A stretch of 64,000 nucleotides of DNA from Caldicellulosiruptor naganoensis (lineage in GTDB: Bacteria; Bacillota; Thermoanaerobacteria; Caldicellulosiruptorales; Caldicellulosiruptoraceae), in NCBI RefSeq assembly GCF_026914285.1, contig NZ_CP113864.1, positions 2,232,501 through 2,296,500 on the forward strand, given 5' to 3'. A program made the translations under genes and the position numbers. Positions 4,777-57,202 of the stretch are shown here, one piece after another. Position 1 is the stretch's first letter. Each line of letters opens with the position of its first letter. The notes under the pieces are model-generated. The model had not been told where the DNA came from, did not search any database, and saw only the letters and a program-made list of their open reading frames with translations.

Positions 4777-6563
4777 TTACCTTGAAAGCCTTTGTTTTAG
4801 TTTTTCGTTCTCTTCAATGAGCTCACGTGGGAGTCTTTCTCCAAACTGGCTTAAAAACTGTCTTGCATCTTCTGCTTCCTTGAGCCACAGGTCTTTATCT
4901 ATCTCAAGAAGCTTTTCTACAGTTTCTTTGTCTATATCAAGACCTTCTAAGTAAAGGTCATCAACATATGGAACATAACCAATCGGTGTCTCTTTTGCTG
5001 GGACTTTCCCCTCACATCTTTCGATTATCCACTTGAGCACTCTCAAGTTCTCACCAAACCCAGGCCAGATGAACTTGCCATTTTCGTCTTGTCTAAACCA
5101 GTTCACATGGAAAGTCTTTGGAGGGTTTGGAATCTTCTTACCCATCTCAAGCCAGTGCGCAAAATAGTCTGCCATGTTATAGCCACAGAACGGAAGCATT
5201 GCCATCGGGTCGCGACGAACTACACCAACCTTGCCCATTGCAGCAGCAGTTGTTTCAGATGCCATTGTAGCACCGATATATACACCATGCTGCCAGTCAA
5301 ATGCCTCATAAACAAGTGGTGCAACCTTTGCACGTCTGCCACCAAATATTATTGCCGAAATGGGTACGCCCTTTGGATTTTCCCACTCCTTTGAAATTGA
5401 TGGACACTGGCTGGCAGGTGCTGTAAATCTTGCGTTCGGGTGCGCACCCTTTTCACTGCTGTCTTTTGTCTATGGTCTTCCAAGCCAGTCAATACCTCGC
5501 TCTGGCGGCTCTCCATCCATGCCTTCCCACCAAACTGTTCCATCTTCTTTTAAAAGAACATTTTGTATATATAGTATTTCTCTTTATTGTCTCCATTGCA
5601 TTCGGATTTGTCTTGTAGCTTGTGCCAAGAGCAACTCCAAAAAACCCTGCTTCAGGGTTGATAACCCGAAGCCTTCCATCCTCGCCTATTCTCATCCATG
5701 CAATGTCATCGCCAACAGTCCAAACTTTATATCCAAGCTTCTTGAGCGGCTCTGATGGAATTAGCATAGCAAGGTTTGTCTTTCCACACGCGCTTGGGAA
5801 CGCACCTGCGATGTATGTTACCTTACCGTTTGGGTCTTCAATTCCGACAATCAGCATGTGTTCTGCTATCCAGCCTTCTTTTTCCCCAAGTAGCTTGCAA
5901 TTCTGAGTGCAAAACATTTTTTAGAAAGGATGACATTACCACCATATCCTGAGTTTACGCTCATGATGGTGTTGTCCTGTGGAAAGTGACAAATGTATCT
6001 TTTCTATGGATCAAGTGTTGCTTTTGAGTGAAGTCCTTTTACAAAGTCAGGAGAAGAGCCAAGATGTCTTAGCGCAACATCGCCAATTCTTGCTATAATT
6101 CTTAAATTTAGTACAACATAGATGCTGTCTGTAAGCTAGATTCCCACTTTTGAATATGGTGAGTTAGCAGGTCCCATCAAATATGGAACAACATACATTG
6201 TTCGACCTTTCATGGAACCGTCAAAAAGTGAGTAGAGCATCTTGTAAGCCTCATTTGGGTCCATCCAGTTGTTTGTTTGACCTGCCTCTTCTTTTGTTGG
6301 AGTGCAGATAAATGTCCTGTCTTCAACCCTTGCAACATCGCTCGGATGTGTTCTGTAAGATAACACCCTGGAAGCTTTTCCTGGTTGAGCTCCATCAGCT
6401 CCCCCGTCTGAAGAGCTTCTTTAATGAGCTTCTCTTTTTCCTCTTCAGATCCATCTATCCAGACAATCTTGTCTGGCTTTGTAATCCTTGCCATCTCGTC
6501 AATCCATTGATACACGGATGGATGTAAGTTCACCTCTACCACCTTTTCTCCACCACCTTGCAA
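4777..6563 (-). pseudogene. pckG: Phosphoenolpyruvate carboxykinase (GTP), heavily disrupted
   Basis: GTP-type PEPCK converts oxaloacetate and GTP to PEP, GDP and CO2. The recognisable blocks in order are [27 protein letters not shown], the P-loop [60 protein letters not shown], and RRDPMAMLPFCGYNMADYF near the C-terminus. The frame shifts near 6375, 5905 (GGGGAAAAAG) and 5550 (AAAA). In-frame TAG codons stand at 6136-6138, 6004-6006 and 5470-5472, at positions where relatives carry Glu, Glu and Trp. The start is uncertain among TTG 6563, GTG 6542 and GTG 6533, with AAGGTGGTGGAG just upstream. A good promoter remains, so decay is either recent or a sequencing artefact. Confidence 0.85.
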
Positions 6564-20500: not shown

Positions 20501-20548
20501 AAACAAAAAAGCCTTTAATGCCGGACTTTATAGCATTAAAGGCTTTTA
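20501..20548 (-). terminator. Terminator of the TPP riboswitch
   Basis: On the minus strand AAGCCTTTAATGC pairs with GCATTAAAGGCTT and TTTTGTTT follows. The 3' arm contains CCGGCATTA (20524-20516 read on the minus strand), the exact complement of TAATGCCGG at the 3' edge of the aptamer (20581-20573). This gives a competing antiterminator. Confidence 0.8.
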
Positions 20549-20565
20549 TTTTTTGCACTTTTCTT

Positions 20566-20664
20566 CCCTTCGCCGGCATTACCCGGATCAGGTTCAAAGG
20601 GTCAAGGCACGGGGATTTTTTAGTGCCTACTCTCAGCCGAGCTTTGCCCCGCTCAGCTCCCCCT
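20566..20664 (-). promoter_or_regulatory. TPP riboswitch (THI element)
   Basis: The minus strand carries the conserved TPP aptamer: GGGGAGCTGAGCGGGGC at the 5' side, CTGAGAGTAGGCACT, then CCCTTTGAACCTGATCCGGG and TAATGCCGGCG at the 3' side. It binds thiamine pyrophosphate. Here it precedes thiS and the rest of the thiamine operon. With the downstream terminator it should switch expression off when TPP is plentiful. Confidence 0.95.
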
Positions 20665-20774
20665 TAAAACCAGATATTTAATTTTTCACTTTTTAGTATA
20701 CCACTTTGGAAAAAGCTTTGCAAGAAAATCAAACTCAACAAAAAACTTTAAGTTATAAGAACCACAGTTTGTTC

Positions 20775-20984
20775 TTACTTCAATTTTTTTATTTCTTCAG
20801 GTGTAAGACCCGTATACTTTGAAATAAGCTCTATAGGTTGATTATCTTTTAGCATCTGTTTTGCGATTAATTTCATTGCGCGTTTCATACCTTGTTTCAT
20901 GCCTTGCTTCATTGCCTCTTTAGCAATTTTTTTCTTTTCTCTTTCAATTCCTTGCTTTATCTTTTCTGCTGTGCTTGAAAACAT
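20775..20984 (-). CDS. Small Rpn C-terminal-module protein, separate from its nuclease
   Basis: 69 residues: a charged helix with the repeat KQGMKQGMKRAM, then the C-terminal motif PIELISKYTGLTPEEIKKLK, which matches the end of every Rpn protein in this window. It starts at ATG 20984, seven bases after GGAGGTG. The upstream nuclease gene ends in TGA at 21000-21002 in the same frame, so the two halves of a normal Rpn protein are encoded as two genes with their own start. In Enterobacteria the separately made C-terminal part of Rpn proteins counteracts the nuclease; the same role is inferred here. Confidence 0.65.
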   Translation of the reverse strand: MFSSTAEKIKQGIEREKKKIAKEAMKQGMKQGMKRAMKLIAKQMLKDNQPIELISKYTGLTPEEIKKLK

Positions 20985-20999
20985 CTCATCCACCTCCAA

Positions 21000-21692
21000 T
21001 CATGATTTTTTAAACATTTCTTCTGCTTCTTCTTCACTAACACCATAAGACCTTAAAATAACCTCATACAACCAATCAGCTAATTCTTCTCTCTGTTCCC
21101 AGTTAAGATGTATTTTTCCTCTTAAATTCAATATTCTATTAAGCACCCTTTCAGGATTATTAGATACTTGGTCAATGTACATTGCTATTGCTAATACGTT
21201 TGATGCACTAATTAACTTCTCCTCGGGTATACTTTTGATATCTAAGAATATCACCTTGAAATTTTGTGCGTACTCAGGAAAATCTTCTGCAAATAGGCTA
21301 ATTTCGCTATACTGTTCATTAGGTTTCCAATGACTTATACCATTATACAGCACAATTGGCACAACTACTGGTATTTCACCATTTACTTTGTTTTTGAGCT
21401 GAATGAGATGCATATATTCATATAATCTGTGTAAAATTCTCTTGTCCTCTCTACTTTGAAATTCAATGGTCAAACAAAAGAAAGAATCTTTATACTTTAT
21501 CTTATATACTATGTCTGAGCTTTTCTTTTGCCACTTTTTATTTATCGACTCAGTTGCAATAATCTCTATATCATTCTTTTCTATTCTTCTAAATCTTTCT
21601 TCATTTAAAACATCCTGTAAAAACCAAATTAGATTCTCTTTATTAGAAAACAATTTTTTGTATCCTTCATCATACTTTCTATAAGTGCTCAT
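21000..21692 (-). CDS. Rpn-family PD-(D/E)XK nuclease, N-terminal domain only
   Basis: 230 residues of the Rpn (recombination-promoting nuclease, formerly putative transposase) family. The start YRKYDEGYKKLFSNKENL is typical. The nuclease core has SSDIVYKIKY, an aspartate, and CLTIEFQSRED, the ExQ motif standing for the ExK of the fold, followed by LHRLYEYMHLI and VVPIVLYNG. It lacks the C-terminal repeat and helix module, which follows as a separate small gene after an in-frame TGA. AAAGGAG precedes the ATG. Confidence 0.8.
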   Translation of the reverse strand: MSTYRKYDEGYKKLFSNKENLIWFLQDVLNEERFRRIEKNDIEIIATESINKKWQKKSSDIVYKIKYKDSFFCLTIEFQSREDKRILHRLYEYMHLIQLKNKVNGEIPVVVPIVLYNGISHWKPNEQYSEISLFAEDFPEYAQNFKVIFLDIKSIPEEKLISASNVLAIAMYIDQVSNNPERVLNRILNLRGKIHLNWEQREELADWLYEVILRSYGVSEEEAEEMFKKS

Positions 21693-21937
21693 ACTTTTCT
21701 CCTTTTTGTAAAATTACAATCATTGCAAAAAGTCAATGCTATTTTTATTATACCTCTTTTAAATCATCGATAACAATAAGCTTTTTCAGATTCCAAATCT
21801 ATCTAAATTGTAATATTAAATACAACATTTTTTAAAAGAAACTGAAAATTATCAATTGATTAAGGCTTCAATAATTTTGTTTATCGTTACATTTAATTTT
21901 ACAACAAACAATAAAGTTTTTTAAGTTGTTCTGGACC

Positions 21938-22171
21938 TTAGTTAATCTTCTCCTGCGCTATTTTTTCAATCTCTTCAATACTTAGGTTGGTCGCCTTGGA
22001 TATGATATCGTATGAAATTCCTAACTGAATCATTCTTTTTGCTGTCTCTATCCTCTCTTGCTGGATACCCTGTTGAATTCCTTGTTGAATCCCTTGTTGG
22101 ACTCCTGCCAAAAACTCTTTTGTTTTTGCTTCATCCAAAAGTCTTGCCACATTTGACACAAACTCACCCAT
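21938..22171 (-). CDS. Orphan Rpn C-terminal module with GIQQ repeats
   Basis: 77 residues starting MGEFVSNVARLLDEAKTKEF, then three GIQQ units, then a helix ending ISKATNLSIEEIEKIAQ. It is homologous to the C-terminal 80 residues of the Rpn protein at 56132. The nuclease domain is missing: the next gene upstream is a YhfC-type membrane protein. The start is ATG 22171 with GGGGGTGGAG just before it. It could be a solo antitoxin-like protein or a deletion remnant. Confidence 0.55.
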   Translation of the reverse strand: MGEFVSNVARLLDEAKTKEFLAGVQQGIQQGIQQGIQQERIETAKRMIQLGISYDIISKATNLSIEEIEKIAQEKIN

Positions 22172-22214
22172 TAGCTCCACCCCCTTTTTTATACACACCT
22201 TTCTTTCAGCCCTT

Positions 22215-22998
22215 TTAGCTTTCTTGTATTTTATGAATGTCTTTCCACTTTATGATATAAATTAGACTCAATACAGTCCATAGCAAAACTACAAGTTTAA
22301 TAGCAAATATATTAACTTTTACTAATGCCATATATGCAGCAGGGGCATCAATGATTGTGTGAAGCAATATTGCAAAAGCAAGATAATACAGCCTCTTTCT
22401 TTTAACAGCTACCAGAACCAAAAGCGAAAAAGCAATCTGAATTGTCATTGTGAAGACTCTTTCAAAACCGGCAAGAAGAAATGTCGAAGCAGGTGTTTCA
22501 ATAAGTGCACTTTTTATAGACTTAATTACCTCAGGAGAAACTTTGCCTTTTAAAAGAATATCTAAACTGCCAGAGTTAATTAAAAAAGAATACACAATGT
22601 TATTTATATAGGCTATTCCAACAAGCAAGATTGATTCAATCCCACCATGTCCAACCCCATAAGCAAGACCGTTTTGATAGTTTAGCCTATCTTTTTAAAA
22701 ACCCTCTAAAACCAATATATCTTCCAACCTCTTCAAAAATCCCAGCTGTCAGACCCAAAAAGAGAGAGTATACAATGTAATGCTTGGAAAATTGTACAAA
22801 GTAACTTTGTTTTGACAAGATCTGAAGTATCGGAATTCTCAGAATAACCTGAGAAATGAAAAATATTAATGCTACTATTAAAATTGATTTTAAAACTCCT
22901 GAGTACTTCTTTAAAACAATCACAGCCAGCACAACCGGAAAGCCTACTGAAAGAAGAAGTGTAATGCACATAAATATGATTTTGAGATTAGATACCAT
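22215..22998 (-). pseudogene. YhfC-family intramembrane metalloprotease, one frame slip
   Basis: About 260 residues with seven or so membrane segments. It has the catalytic-type motifs of the YhfC/CPBP superfamily: FEEVGRYIGFRG, then GLAYGVGHGGIESILLVG, then LLHTIIDAPAAY. The frame slips near 22695 in a run of A (minus strand TTTTTAAAAAGATAGG), between GFRGFLKR and DRLNYQNGLAYG; one or two bases restore it. The role in Firmicutes is poorly known. The start ATG 22998 has AAGAGGTG upstream. Confidence 0.75.
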
Positions 22999-28900: not shown

Positions 28901-29131
28901 TTAATTATTATGCTTTGCGCGCAGCTCCTTTATCTTTTCAATATCAAGCCCTGTTATCTCATGAATTTCCTCATCTGAATATCCTTTTACTATCATCTTT
29001 TCTGCTATCTCAAGCTCCTTTTTCTGCAGCCCTTGTTGCAGTCCTTGTTGCAGTCCATCCTGAATTCCTTTTTGAATTCCTTCGTGATACCACTCTTCTC
29101 TTATTTTTCTCAAATTTTGAAAAAGTGGCAT
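28901..29131 (-). CDS. Predicted intragenic product: C-terminal module of the rpn gene
   Basis: Within the rpn gene, in the same frame, ATG 29131 is preceded by a perfect AGGAGGTG (29147-29140) at a spacing of eight. Translation here would give a 76-residue protein, MPLFQNLRKI onward, containing the GIQ/GLQQ repeats and the terminal helix motif. The same AGGAGGTGCAGGTAWAATG arrangement occurs in the rpn gene at 56132, and separate small genes at 20775 and 21938 encode the same module. Expression is inferred, not shown. Confidence 0.5.
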   Translation of the reverse strand: MPLFQNLRKIREEWYHEGIQKGIQDGLQQGLQQGLQKKELEIAEKMIVKGYSDEEIHEITGLDIEKIKELRAKHNN

Positions 29132-29881
29132 TATACCTGCACCTCCTGTTATATATTCCAAAATATCTCTTGCTTCTTGTATCTTCTCTTCACCTAATTC
29201 CTTCAATGCAGCTGGCAAACATATCCTTAGGGTATTAATCTCCTTTTCTTTTGCACCTTGTAGATATTTATTTAAATCTAAAAACAATCTTTCTAATTCC
29301 TCACCTGTTCTCACCTTATTCAATTTTAATATTAAACTTAAAACATCTTTATATTTGAACACCATCTCTTCAGGATTATTTAAATCAATCAGTATGTATT
29401 CAAAATCTACTATATACTTTCCAAACATCTCAAAATTCATTATTCTCTCTTTCAAATTTACAATCGCTGTCCAAGGATTATCACCATCGTATAAAACTAT
29501 TGGCACAACTGGTGGAAATTCAAAACTTTTATTTTTAAATTGATTTTTATCAAATTGCTTGAGCCAATCTCTCCAAATGTCGGTTATATAAAATAACAAC
29601 CTCATAGCCATGTTATAATCAACTGTAGATTGGTGTTCAAACAAAATATAGAAAAAAACCTCTTCTTCTTGCAATCTTGCCTTGTACAAAAGATCACTTT
29701 CCTGTTCAGAAAAATCTGGCAATACATAATTTTTGTCCACCAGTTCAAGGTTTTCTTCTGTTAGTTCATTAAATATCTTTATCTTGCCAATCCTTCCCAA
29801 AAGTCTCAAAAATAGGCTTTTGTTGGAAAATATATATTTGTATTCAAGATCATTTATATTGTAAGGTAAATTATCACACAT
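28901..29881 (-). CDS. Full-length Rpn-family PD-(D/E)XK nuclease
   Basis: The only intact full-length Rpn protein in the window, 326 residues. The nuclease domain (about 1-180) has ESDLLYKARL and ILFEHQSTVD (the D...ExQ pattern), then AMRLLFYITDIW and VVPIVLYDGDNPW. A helical linker follows. The C-terminal module starts at MPLFQNLRKI (residue 251), with repeats GIQKGIQDGLQQGLQQGLQ and the terminal motif VKGYSDEEIHEITGLDIEKI. AGGAGGTG lies exactly eight bases before the internal ATG 29131. Rpn proteins are DNA endonucleases linked to phage defence in Enterobacteria. Confidence 0.85.
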   Translation of the reverse strand: MCDNLPYNINDLEYKYIFSNKSLFLRLLGRIGKIKIFNELTEENLELVDKNYVLPDFSEQESDLLYKARLQEEEVFFYILFEHQSTVDYNMAMRLLFYITDIWRDWLKQFDKNQFKNKSFEFPPVVPIVLYDGDNPWTAIVNLKERIMNFEMFGKYIVDFEYILIDLNNPEEMVFKYKDVLSLILKLNKVRTGEELERLFLDLNKYLQGAKEKEINTLRICLPAALKELGEEKIQEARDILEYITGGAGIMPLFQNLRKIREEWYHEGIQKGIQDGLQQGLQQGLQKKELEIAEKMIVKGYSDEEIHEITGLDIEKIKELRAKHNN

Positions 29882-34809: not shown

Positions 34810-35227
34810 CTTAGATAAAATTTCCTTGAAAATGAAATATATCAGAGAATGTTTATCAAAACTTGAACAGCTCAAAAAATTAAGTTACCAAGATTTCATT
34901 GCTGATTTTAGGAATATCACAAGTTGTAAGTATCTATTACAAACATCAATTGAAGCTATTATTGATATATGCAATCATATCGTTTCAAGAAAAAAATTAG
35001 GTAAGCCTTCAAGTTATTCTGATACCATCAAAATTTTGCTTGAAAATAGTTATATTTCAACTAATTTAGCAGAAAAATTAATCCGAATGGTGAAATTTAG
35101 AAACAGAATAGTTCATTTGTATCTTGAGGTAGACAACCAAACTTTATATGAAATCCTCCAAAACAATCTTAGTGATTTTGAACTGTTTTGGAATGAGATT
35201 TCAAGCAAAATTTTTAATGAGGAGTGA
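34793..35227 (+). CDS. hepT: HepT-type HEPN ribonuclease toxin
   Basis: About 144 residues, all helical, with the HEPN catalytic motif RNRIVHLY (Rx4HxY) near residue 100. Such toxins cut RNA and are blocked by AMP added by MntA to the tyrosine of the motif. AAAGGAG lies 8-10 bases before ATG 34793. The gene overlaps mntA by 17 bases, so the order is antitoxin then toxin. Confidence 0.88.
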   Translation: MQNNLDLDKISLKMKYIRECLSKLEQLKKLSYQDFIADFRNITSCKYLLQTSIEAIIDICNHIVSRKKLGKPSSYSDTIKILLENSYISTNLAEKLIRMVKFRNRIVHLYLEVDNQTLYEILQNNLSDFELFWNEISSKIFNEE

Positions 35228-35231
35228 TGAC

Positions 35232-36299
35232 ATGGACTTTTTGCTGATATTAATCTTAGCTCTTGTTTTCATTTTGCCATTCGTGTTTAAAAAGGTGGAG
35301 CACAATTTAGAAATTTTTCTTTTTTTTCATGGGAATTTTGGCAACAATCGTTTCAAAAACTTTATCTGCGCATTTGATTGGACATATTCTCTCAAATTAT
35401 CTTCTCTATGTTGTCACTGCAGTAGTTTTAATAATGGGCTTTCTCTTTAATCTCTCGGTTAACAAGCTTAAAAATGCTATTAACCTTTTACTTAGCAAGA
35501 TAAACCTTGAAATCTTTATATTTTTGGTTTTGTTAATCTTGGGACTTTTCTCAAGCGTAATTACTGCTATTGTTGCAACACTGATAATGGTAGAAATATT
35601 ACATCTGCTACCTTTGAAACATTCATCAAAATCAAAAGTTGCAATTGCTGGGTGCTACACAATTGGCTTTGGCGCTGCGCTAACACCAATTGGCGAGCCT
35701 CTTTCTACTATTGTTGTAAGTATATTGAAAGAAGATTTTGCTTATCTCCTTCGTCTTGTGGGTCACTATATTATACCTGTGATACTTGTCATGGCTTTAC
35801 TTGGAAGCTTTATTGCTAAAAGAGAAAAGAAATTCTTTTACAGAAAAGAAGAGATGTCTGAAGAAGAAAGAAAGTATTTTGAAATAGAAGAACAGCACAT
35901 AAAAGAAGTTGAAACACACAAAGATGTAGTGATAAGAGCAGGTAAATATTTTTGTTTATAGTGGCATTAGAGATCTTAGGAAATGGATTTAAACCGTTTA
36001 TAGACAAATACATTGTAAAGCTTGGTGACAAGTTATTATTTTGGCTTAATACTATATCTGCCGTTTTAGATAATGCAACAGTTGCAGCTGCTATAATCAG
36101 CCCAAAACTTACCTCAAGCCAAGTAACTGCTATTCTTATCAGTCTCTTAGCAAGTGGTGGAATGCTCATTCAAGGAAACATTCCAAATATTATTGCGGCA
36201 AATAAACTCGAAATAAAGAGCAAAGAATGGGTTAAATTTGGTTTTCCTATAGGTCTGGTTTTATTGACAACCTTTTATGTTATTTTGTTAGTAATATAA
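35232..36299 (+). pseudogene. DUF1646 family membrane transporter, two frame slips
   Basis: About 350 residues with ten or so membrane segments: a putative cation transporter of the ion-transporter superfamily. Typical blocks are GCYTIGFGAALTPIGEPLST, AVLDNATVAAAIISPKLT and LASGGMLIQGNIPNIIAANK. The frame slips at a run of eight T near 35320-35328 (seven T would give FFMGILATIV) and at five T near 35950 (six T would give YFLFIVALEILG). Both repairs are single bases in homopolymers. ATG 35232 overlaps no gene but follows hepT by four bases. Confidence 0.75.
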
Positions 36300-36654: not shown

Positions 36655-39101
36655 TTAAAATCTTTTTAGCCTCAGAGCGTTTGAAACCACAGAGACTGAA
36701 GAAAACGCCATAGCAAAAGCCGCTATAATTGGATTCAAAAGTGGTCCACCAAATATGTGTAAAACCCCTGCCGCAATCGGAATGCCCAATGCGTTGTAGA
36801 AAAATGCCCAGAATAGATTCTGTTTGATGTTCTGTATTGTCTTTTTGCTAAGCAGTATTGCATTACAACGTCCAATATATCATTTCTCATAAGAACCACA
36901 TCAGCAGCTTCTGCTGCAACATCTGTTCCAGACCCAATTGCTATACCAACATCAGCTTGAGCTAAAGCTGGTGCGTCGTTTATCCCATCGCCCACCATCG
37001 AAACTTTTTACCTTCTCCCTGAAGTTTTTTCACTTCATTTGCCTTGTCCTGTGGCAAGACCTCCGTTAAAACCCTATCTATTCCAACCTGCTTTGCAATT
37101 GCTTTTGCTGTTTTTCTATTATCCCCTGTAATCATTGCAACGTTAATACCCATTTTATGCAAAAGCTCAATTGCCCGCTTAGCATCTGGCTTTACCACAT
37201 CTGATACTGCTATTATGCCAGCAAACTTTCCATTCTGCGCTACAAACATAGGTGTCTTTGCCTGCTGTGAAAGCTTTTCTACATCAAGTAAGAAATCTAT
37301 CTCAATCCCTTTATCTTTCATAAGTTTTTCATTACCAACAAGAATTGTTTGCCCATCTACCACTGCCTCTATTCCATGCCCTGAAATTGCTTCAAACTGA
37401 CTTGCTTCAAAAAGTTGCAGATTCTTTTCCTTTGCTGCAGCAACTATTGCTTCACCTAAAGGATGTTCAGAGAGCCTTTCTGCTGACGCTACTATTTGCA
37501 ACAGTCTTTCGCTTTCCCACCCATTTGCCGGAATTATGTCAGTCACTTTTGGTTTTCCTTCAGTGATTGTTCCTGTTTTGTCGAAGACAACTGTTGTGAT
37601 CTTGTGCAAGATTTCTAACGCCTCACCACTTTTTATCAAAATCCCATGTTCTGCACCTTTTCCTGTACCAACCATGATAGCAGTTGGTGTTGCAAGACCC
37701 AAAGCGCACGGGCATGCGATAACTAAGACGGTAATAAATATTCTCAAAGCGAAAATAAATGAATTGTCAACAAAGTACCACGCAAGGGCTGAGATTGTAG
37801 CAATGAGAATAACAACTGGTACAAAATACCCTGAGATTACATCTGCCAACCTTGCGATTGGTGCTTTAGCGCTTTGAGCGTCCTCAACCAGCTTGATAAT
37901 CTGTGCAATGACTGTATTCTTGCCAACCTTTGTAGCTTTTATCTTTAGCGTACCATTTTTGTTTATTGTAGCGCCAATAACCTTGCTGCCAGGTGTTTTT
38001 TCAACAGGGATGCTCTCCCCTGTTAGCATTGACTCATCAACAAAGCTTCTACCTTCAATTACTTCCCCATCAACGGGAATCTTTTCACCCGGTCTCACTA
38101 AAATTATATCCCCGACTTCAACTTCTTCTATTGGAATAACTATTTCATTTCCCCCTTGAATAACTGTTGCAGTCTTTGGCGCAAGCTCCATTAATTTTTT
38201 TATAGCCTCAGAAGCTTTACCTTTAGAAACTGCTTCTAAGTATTTGCCAAGTAAGACAAGGGCTATAATTACACCTGCAGTCTCAAAATACATCTCCTTT
38301 ACATACTGGTAGTTACCCATTGCAATTTGGTATATAGCAAAAAGACCATAAAAAAAAGCAGCTCCTGTCCCAACTGCAATTAATGAGTCCATGTTGGGCT
38401 GCAGCTTTAAAAGCCTGCTAAAGCCTACCGTGTAGAACTTATATCCTGCAATGACAATTGGAATTTCCAATATTGCCTGTACAAGCGCAAAATTCAAAGG
38501 ATGTTTTTCTGGCAGAATTATCTCTGGCAGCGAAACTCCCACCACATGTGCCATAGCAATCAATAAAAGTGGAACTGCAAATACACTTGCAATGACAAAC
38601 CTTCTTAAAAAGACTATTTATCTCCTTTTGTTTTCGCTCTTGATGCAAATCTTCATAGGATGTCTTCTCAATCTCAAGTGGCGTATATCCGGCTTTTATT
38701 ATCGCATTTTTTATTTCAGACAGTCTTACCTGAGATGAATCATACACAACTCTTGCTTTTTCACTTGCAAGGTTAACACTTACATCTTTTATTCCACTGA
38801 GTTTTGAAATTGATTTTTCGATTGCTCTTGCACATGAAGCACATGTCATGCCTGAAATAGGAATGGTTACTTCTCTAATAGTTTCCTCAACATCATCCAA
38901 AACACCATATCCAGCTCTTTCAACAGCTTCTTTGATCTTTTCAATGCTGGCTTTGCTCTCATCAAACTCAACAATAAGTTTCTCAGTGGCAAAGTTAACC
39001 GACGCATTACTTACTCCTTCTACTTTGCTAACACTTTTTTCAATCGCCCTTGCACACGAAGCACATGTCATACCTGTTACATTCAAAGTTTTTTTCTCCA
39101 C
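36655..39101 (-). pseudogene. copA: Copper-exporting P-type ATPase CopA, three frame slips
   Basis: Two N-terminal metal domains (both with GMTCASCARAIEKS), eight membrane segments with the CPC site [14 protein letters not shown], the phosphorylation site [24 protein letters not shown], and the hinge [13 protein letters not shown], ending in NALRLKRF. This is the normal length of about 815 residues. The frame slips near 38610, 37003 (AAAAA before the hinge) and 36867; each is fixed by one added A, so these are probably sequence errors. It starts at GTG 39101 after AGAGGGTG. Confidence 0.9.
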
Positions 39102-39141
39102 ATGTAACACCCTCTTTTTTAGCATTTGCCAATACAATTTT

Positions 39142-52494: not shown

Positions 52495-52752
52495 TCAGAA
52501 TTGTCTAAATTCTTCATCTGTCATGTTTTGTCTCAATTCTTTTATTTTCTCAACGTCAAGTTCTGTGACCTTTGAAATAAAACTGTCTTCTGCTCCTGCT
52601 ACTATCATGTTCCGTGCTATTCTGATTGTGGCTTCAAGTTCTCCTTCAAGCCTTCCTTCCTCATACCCTTTTTCTTTTCCTTTTTCCTCAGCTTCCCTGT
52701 AATACTCCTGCATCAGCCGCTGAACATTAAATACAAAATCACCCACCTTCAT
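52495..52752 (-). CDS. Rpn C-terminal module, separate gene
   Basis: 85 residues: VGDFVFNVQRLMQEYYREAEE, a KGKEKGYEEGRLEGELEAT repeat-like helix, then AGAEDSFISKVTELDVEKIKELR. It is homologous to the C-terminal modules at 21938 and 56132, but the GIQQ repeats are replaced by charged residues. Its ATG overlaps the stop of the upstream Rpn fragment (ATGA). It could still be translated on its own. Confidence 0.5.
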   Translation of the reverse strand: MKVGDFVFNVQRLMQEYYREAEEKGKEKGYEEGRLEGELEATIRIARNMIVAGAEDSFISKVTELDVEKIKELRQNMTDEEFRQF

Positions 52753-52964
52753 CCAACCTCTTTTTCAACAAACTCATCTTTTACAAAGCTTCTGTCAACG
52801 AATTCAAGGCTTTGCGGGTCTATTTTATCAACCCATGGTCTTTTGATGGTTGATTTTAGAAAGTTCAAAAACACTTCTTTGAAACTGAATATATCCTTTT
52901 GAAAGTCAAATCGTACTGGCTGTGAGGAGGTTTTTGCTCCATTTTCATTTACTCCCATCTTCAA
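52749..52964 (-). pseudogene. N-terminal fragment of an rpn gene
   Basis: 71 residues: DIFSFKEVFLNFLKSTIKR followed by DPQSLEFVDRSFVKDEFVEKE, the start of an Rpn nuclease domain. The frame stops just where the catalytic core (ESD...ExQ) should begin, and the C-terminal module follows immediately, so an internal deletion has removed about 200 residues. Confidence 0.6.
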
Positions 52965-56131: not shown

Positions 56132-56377
56132 TCAAGGAACAATCTCTTTTCGAAGCTTTCTTATCTCTTCAACTTCAAGCTCTGTAAGTTCTGCAATTTC
56201 ATCATCGCTATAACCTTTTTTAATAAGCTTTTTTGCCATTTCAACCTTGGCTCTGTATATCCCCTGCTGAATCCCTTGCTGAATCCCCTGCTGAATTCCC
56301 TGCTGAATTCCCATATTAAACTCTTTTGTCTTTGTCTCATCAAGCAGCCTTGCAACATTGGATACAAAATCACCCAT
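56132..56377 (-). CDS. Predicted intragenic product: C-terminal module of the broken rpn gene
   Basis: ATG 56377 is preceded by AAGGAGGTG (56394-56386) at a spacing of eight, the same arrangement as at 29131. The 81-residue product starts MGDFVSNVARLLDETKTKEF, has four GIQQ units in a row (12-bp DNA repeat GGAATTCAGCAG), and ends with the conserved helix motif. It is upstream-independent, so it could be made even though the long frame is broken. Confidence 0.55.
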   Translation of the reverse strand: MGDFVSNVARLLDETKTKEFNMGIQQGIQQGIQQGIQQGIYRAKVEMAKKLIKKGYSDDEIAELTELEVEEIRKLRKEIVP

Positions 56378-57109
56378 TTTACCTGCACCTCCTTCTTTTA
56401 TCCTTGCTACTATTTTGTCATACTCTGCTTTGAGATCCTCTGCAAGTCTTGGCCGTATAATATAATGTGCCCAGTTTAAAAATCGGTCAATATTTCTTCT
56501 GCTCAAACTCTTTAAATTTGCTTCTATTTCGTATAGTCTCTTCACAAGATCATTTTTATCTTCTCTTACCTGCTCTAAATAGAATACTATTGGACCAAGG
56601 ACATCTTCTTGTTTTTCCAAAAACTTTTTCATATCAAGCTCTATAATATCAACTTACCCGGTATTTAAATATATCATCCTGAATATATCAAAAGCCTCCA
56701 TTAAGTTTGTTGATATATTCCATCTTTCGTCAATTCCGTTATAAACAACTATCGGTATAATTGCGGGCAAAACTTCTACTCCTTTTCTTATCTCTTGCGC
56801 CCATAAGCTTATCATGTATTTTAATATTCTAAGTGGCATATCCCTTTTTACTGTAGACTGATTCTCTATCAATATGTAAAAATACACTTCCCGTTCCCTC
56901 AACCTTGCTTTTGCAATGACATCAGCTTCTATCTGCATAAAATCCTGTGTTACATAGTTTGTTTTTACCAGCTCAATTGAATCTTCATCTATCATCTCTG
57001 CCCATTTGTACTTTAGTATATCTTTTACTAAAAGAAGTATATCCTATTTCTCTTCAAATAAAAATTTAAATGTGGAATCATGTTCTTTAGGAGGCAAATT
57101 TTTGCTCAA
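56132..57109 (-). pseudogene. Rpn-family nuclease gene with two in-frame stops
   Basis: The start is TTG 57109 (MSKNLPPKEHDSTFKFLFEE) with GAAAGGA upstream. The frame meets TAG 57044-57046 after FLFEEK. It then reads DILLLVKDILKYKWAEMIDE and the core IEADVIAKARL and YILIENQSTVKRD, and meets TAA 56654-56656 after YLNTG. It goes on to VDIIELDMKKFLEKQED and the helical linker, all in one frame. The C-terminal module has GIQQ repeats and ends KKGYSDDEIAELTELEVEEI. The N-terminal part is probably not produced, but the internal start at 56377 is intact. Confidence 0.8.
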
Positions 57110-57202
57110 AACATTTGTTCCTTTCAATTTTTAGATTTTTTGCTTTAAGCTGATTTTATTGTTCAATTATAGTTATACCACAAATTCTCTATTTTGTCTT
57201 AA

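Follow-up and report, generated by a model that had tools for sequence, protein, structure and literature searches.

Two loci on the minus strand of the window, a 64,000-nucleotide stretch of the genome of Caldicellulosiruptor naganoensis (G000), carry the C-terminal module of an Rpn protein apart from its nuclease domain: rpn copy 2 at positions 20775-21692, and a solo module at 21938-22171. Both loci are very probably the remains of ordinary full-length Rpn genes that decay toxin first. In this heat-loving bacterium, the two copies of the gene, which codes for a phage-defence nuclease, were recently damaged, and the part that still looks translatable is the antitoxin known to be built into such genes. 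What is seen here is the decay of a known system and not a new one. The split that prompted the preliminary description of this DNA amounts to one codon in one genome.

A stop codon within rpn copy 2

The two open reading frames of copy 2 lie in one frame and are separated only by a TGA (21002-21000). The upstream frame (21000-21692) encodes a nuclease domain of 230 amino acids that ends at the TGA. It matches PF04754 (Transposase_31/YhgA-like domain) with 76.6 bits and an E-value of 2.5e-21, against a curated cut-off of 21, and retains D60, E77, and Q79 in the catalytic D, E, and Q columns, which are invariant in 17 relatives. The downstream frame (20775-20984) encodes RpnS of copy 2, which has 69 amino acids, starts with the ATG at 20984, and contains MKQG-type four-residue repeats, the copy number of which differs among relatives. 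The start codon is preceded by an internal Shine-Dalgarno sequence, GGAGGTG (20991-20997), with a duplex energy of -16.3. The in-frame sequence 3' of the TGA is TTG GAG GTG GAT GAG ATG, and the stop is positioned five codons ahead of the internal start.

Five intact homologues of copy 2 are present in four congeneric genomes (G005, G002, G004 with two copies, and G008). The identity of copy 2 to the G004 homologues is 96% over all 305 residues, and 95% for the second G004 copy, whereas it is 99% for G005 (residues 1-271), 96% for G002 (residues 1-274), and 93% for G008. In the alignment, each of the five homologues has GGA, encoding glycine, at the position of the stop codon and forms a single open reading frame of 307-321 amino acids; the C-terminal module, which the TGA after residue 230 cuts off in G000, is part of the full-length protein. 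The internal start is retained in the homologues, with a Shine-Dalgarno sequence and an ATG (TTG in G008). The changes in copy 2 that are private to G000 are three synonymous and one missense substitution in addition to the stop. Because the five intact homologues read GGA within a single open reading frame, the split is derived and private to G000. The preliminary description regarded the nuclease and the module as two genes. The two reading frames and the PF04754 domain are there as described, but the sequence of copy 2 is that of one rpn gene interrupted by one in-frame stop. The same split was looked for in the relatives, and the fused form was found in all five intact homologues. Either a nonsense mutation of recent origin or a sequencing error may account for the TGA.

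A TPP riboswitch (RF00059) is located on the minus strand at 20548-20673, with rpn copy 2 on one side and the thi genes on the other. The DNA of the copy 2 region (20765-21788) is about 97% identical to that of G005 (L096:4778-5824), and the proteins are 99% identical outside the repeats, whereas yhfC is 90% identical. The higher identity of copy 2 than of yhfC hints at a recent exchange.

A solo RpnS at the copy 1 locus

The solo RpnS (21938-22171, minus strand) has 77 amino acids and resembles RpnA-S. As the preliminary description stated, it stands without a nuclease: it has its own ATG and Shine-Dalgarno sequence, GGGGGTGGAG (22175-22184, minus strand; energy -16.0), which aligns with that of relatives, and there is no nuclease upstream in frame. 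The gene immediately upstream is now yhfC (22215-22998, minus strand), which encodes a YhfC intramembrane metalloprotease (PF10086). In nine relatives (G001-G008 and G010), a longer rpn copy 1, the C-terminus of which is related to the solo, occupies the same locus, flanked by yhfC and by the thi genes (thiS), which are led by a TPP riboswitch. The nuclease part of copy 1 is frameshifted in two of these relatives, G004 and G007. In G000 and G009, the nuclease part is deleted and the 3' flank of yhfC is fused to copy 1 a few bases 5' of the internal Shine-Dalgarno sequence. The deletion junction (22186-22188, minus strand) is identical in the two genomes, which belong to different species, and suggests that a single deletion was inherited or shared. 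Judged from this comparison, the solo is the retained 3' end of a longer rpn gene, a 77-residue reading frame whose GGGGGTGGAG...ATG start was the internal one in the full-length gene. The junction pattern was not found in genome_contigs and viral_contigs, and the plasmid search gave no match.

Between the solo RpnS genes of G000 and G009 there are two nonsynonymous and four synonymous differences. These are weak signs of purifying selection, which are not accepted as proof of a function of the solo because the P-value of 0.09 in a neutral simulation is not significant.

Identity of the module and its internal start

Zhong et al. 2023 (PMC10327210) described the gene-within-gene organization of RpnL and RpnS, the antitoxin action of RpnS, and separate rpnS genes in E. 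coli, one of which is translated. The solo matches model positions 223-273, the C-terminus, of TIGR01784 (E-value 3e-12), and the separate nuclease and solo products each score below the curated cut-off of the model (52.1 bits). A profile of the five modules from the window matches the crystal chain of RpnA-S (7th0) with an E-value of 5e-4. The predicted model of the solo (pLDDT 81.5) contains one long and two short helices (residues 2-49, 54-61, and 65-76). Its first fold match is 7th0, with an rmsd of 0.9 Å over 37 residues and a TM score of 0.75 by target length; the Foldseek E-value is 0.59, for a very small protein. The model of the nuclease was left out for its low confidence (pLDDT 61). 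The number of the four-residue repeats, which belong to the first helix of the module, varies among relatives in both copies. The module most likely exists as a separate protein with the function of an antitoxin, as was proposed before; this is established for the family (PMC10327210), and both the sequence and the predicted fold match RpnA-S. PADLOC gave only a weak match to its 'putative invertase' model, and PF12784, which is the wrong family, gave no match.

Each of the 41 distinct intact Rpn proteins analysed has, ahead of its internal start, a Shine-Dalgarno sequence with a predicted pairing energy of -6 kcal/mol or lower. The median energy is -15.6 (n = 41), compared to -3.6 for 676 other internal start codons (Mann-Whitney p = 2e-25). 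The module of copy 2 thus does have its own GGAGGTG and ATG, but these are not distinctive of the split; on sequence grounds they are the known RpnS antitoxin start, general to the family.

The preliminary description also suggested that the module may act on several Rpn nucleases. The solo is 94-97% identical to the modules of intact copy 1 genes in relatives, but its identity to the modules of the three intact Rpn proteins of G000 is at most 42%; a relative with 62% identity is located at 56 kb and has a broken nuclease. RpnS proteins were reported to be specific to their cognate RpnL, even to the number of repeats (Zhong et al. 2023, PMC10327210). Given this specificity and the low identity to the intact modules, action of the solo on several nucleases is unlikely.

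Sequence quality of the assembly

Several conserved genes in the window have lesions that are private to G000. The gene for PEP carboxykinase (4777-6563) contains three single-base indels, whereas it is open over 596-606 codons in ten relatives; copA (36980-39137) contains two, and yhfC one, an insertion near 22696. Comparison across the window additionally revealed frame changes in a transporter-like gene at 35148-36299. The private indels in conserved genes suggest sequencing errors in the G000 assembly, and the TGA of copy 2 may therefore be absent from the organism. Mapping of the reading frames of G005 on G009 gave zero such lesions, and G005 itself has a few. It is a tangible possibility, although not the favored one, that the TGA is a sequencing error, so that copy 2 is an intact fused Rpn gene and only the solo is real. 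However, the known lesions of G000 are indels, whereas the TGA is a substitution. Furthermore, real damage to Rpn genes is frequent in the genus, and the gene at 56132-57127 in the same window also contains stops. No relatives were found in genome_contigs, and the searches there and in viral_contigs yielded no independent sequence of the strain with which to compare the TGA.

Damaged Rpn loci in the genus

Three further Rpn loci on the minus strand of the window were absent from the preliminary description. An intact full-length Rpn of 326 amino acids with an internal Shine-Dalgarno sequence and ATG (28901-29881) served for comparison. In the rpn gene at 56132-57127, the nuclease part is broken by two stops, TAG and TAA, and the RpnS module is intact. 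In the relic at about 52516-52898, nuclease profile positions 15-61 are fused to an RpnS module that is intact and starts with GTG; a joint resembling that of the relic is present in G004 (L174).

The 2.49-Mb single-contig genome G000 was compared with 11 congeneric genomes. The 12 genomes were searched with a profile of 17 Rpn proteins, and the nuclease and module were mapped separately at damaged loci, which were sorted by eye from the profile matches. Shared junctions were counted once. In G012, apparent C-only loci at contig ends (L184 and L186) were excluded as assembly edges. About 19 damaged loci have an intact RpnS and a broken or missing nuclease, and five are uncoupled with both parts intact. 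Among the damaged loci of the 12 genomes, none has an intact nuclease and a lost or broken RpnS. Under a null model proportional to length, the skew of 19/19 has a p-value of 0.005; some skew is to be expected, the nuclease part being three times as long. Most of the signal is contributed by truncations, since the loci with small lesions alone (7/7) give 0.757^7 = 0.14, which is not significant. Judged from the loci surveyed, antitoxins that outlast their nucleases are a recurring feature of the genus.

The uncoupled loci are copy 2 of G000; G011:411k, in which one G was lost from the G-run of the Shine-Dalgarno sequence; G005:2335k, with a change in an A-run; and two loci parted by insertions, G008:2423-2426k (IS21-like) and G005:58-60k. 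In L178:3122-5142, an IS21-like element is positioned at the RpnS Shine-Dalgarno sequence and separates the nuclease from the module. A frameshift position near profile 75-80 recurs, but phase variation is not claimed, as a single junction underlies two of the cases and the remaining ones are not alike. Solo RpnS modules are located near apparent CRISPR repeats and cas-like reading frames, recognized by eye, in L145:1915-2211, L149:2052-2333, and L161:2050-2298.

By the authors' count, seven of 24 lesions or deletion ends are positioned in the stretch of about 40 nucleotides that precedes the internal start (p ~4e-5 if a uniform distribution is assumed). The clustering, the damage skew, and the Shine-Dalgarno sequences retained at nearly all C-only loci would fit standalone RpnS proteins that are positively kept as orphan antitoxins, that is, as antidotes against incoming or paralogous RpnL. 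One of the separate rpnS genes of E. coli is translated (PMC10327210), and an intact solo RpnS of 81 amino acids from another genus of the family (L185:210-1983) lies directly behind MqsR/MqsA-like genes, 23 bases downstream of genes for MqsR-like, MqsA/Panacea-like, and MqsA-like zinc-finger proteins. Positive retention is nevertheless rather doubtful. Selection on the solo is not significant, the published RpnS proteins are specific (PMC10327210), and the list of events was compiled after looking at the data. The clustering could also be explained by mutation bias, as the Shine-Dalgarno G-run and a nearby A-run can slip, an IS21-like element has inserted there, and the region was picked after looking. 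It is likewise unlikely that the module boundary of Rpn is a recurrent breakpoint in the genus and that RpnS is kept as a freestanding antidote, lost nuclease and all, that confers immunity when the same nuclease re-enters or against related copies of it. A stable two-gene toxin-antitoxin architecture, the design originally read into the split and solo forms, is highly improbable: both products keep translation signals and uncoupled loci also occur in G011, G005 (two), and G008, but no split is conserved between the species surveyed, the lesions behind the splits differ from one another (a stop, a G-run deletion, an A-run change, insertions), that of copy 2 is one private stop codon with fused homologues, and tail-truncated RpnD is far less active than the wild type (PMC5350276).

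Probable toxin-first decay of Rpn genes

The favored reading is toxin-first decay. An ordinary Rpn gene encodes a nuclease (RpnL) and, from the internal start, a small antitoxin (RpnS). In copy 2, the stop, or an error mimicking one, ends the nuclease domain early, and RpnS could start from its own site. In copy 1, the deletion ending just 5' of the internal Shine-Dalgarno sequence removed the nuclease part and left RpnS behind yhfC. If RpnS is expressed and acts as an antitoxin, as we infer, loss of the nuclease or its uncoupling from the tail may be survivable. Loss of RpnS beside an intact nuclease would probably not be survivable, and RpnS would therefore be the part that stays intact at damaged loci. 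A tailless nuclease and a free RpnS would result from a stop or frameshift located ahead of the internal start; the activity of E. coli RpnD lacking the last 45 residues is substantially reduced (PMC5350276). The orphan RpnS is probably idle now, or it may neutralize an incoming Rpn nuclease of its own type.

The loci offer a view, from sequence alone, of how a gene-within-gene toxin-antitoxin system is lost: the damage falls on the toxin part, and the antitoxin embedded in the gene survives. Should larger samples show the same skew, this would be evolutionary support for the view that an Rpn nuclease without RpnS harms native hosts distant from E. coli, and it would make orphan RpnS genes testable as antidotes.

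Comparison with known systems

The loci share the main features of the RpnL-RpnS system (YhgA-like, PF04754/COG5464; PMC10327210): a PD-(D/E)XK-type nuclease with conserved D, E, and Q, an internal Shine-Dalgarno sequence and start, and a helical C-terminal module with variable four-residue repeats that resembles RpnA-S (7th0). In contrast to that system, copy 2 contains an interrupting stop, and the nuclease is missing from copy 1. In NCBIfam TIGR01784 (Rpn family recombination-promoting nuclease/putative transposase), the solo matches the C-terminal and the nuclease the N-terminal part, but neither separate product alone reaches the curated cut-off. Close parallels to the solo exist in E. 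coli, where ypaA, which lies downstream of rpnE, and a second copy of rpnC_S are standalone genes that encode RpnS alone with its own start. However, the E. coli genes described are located downstream of a cognate rpn, whereas the solo is what is left of a deleted rpn in a genome without a close intact cognate.
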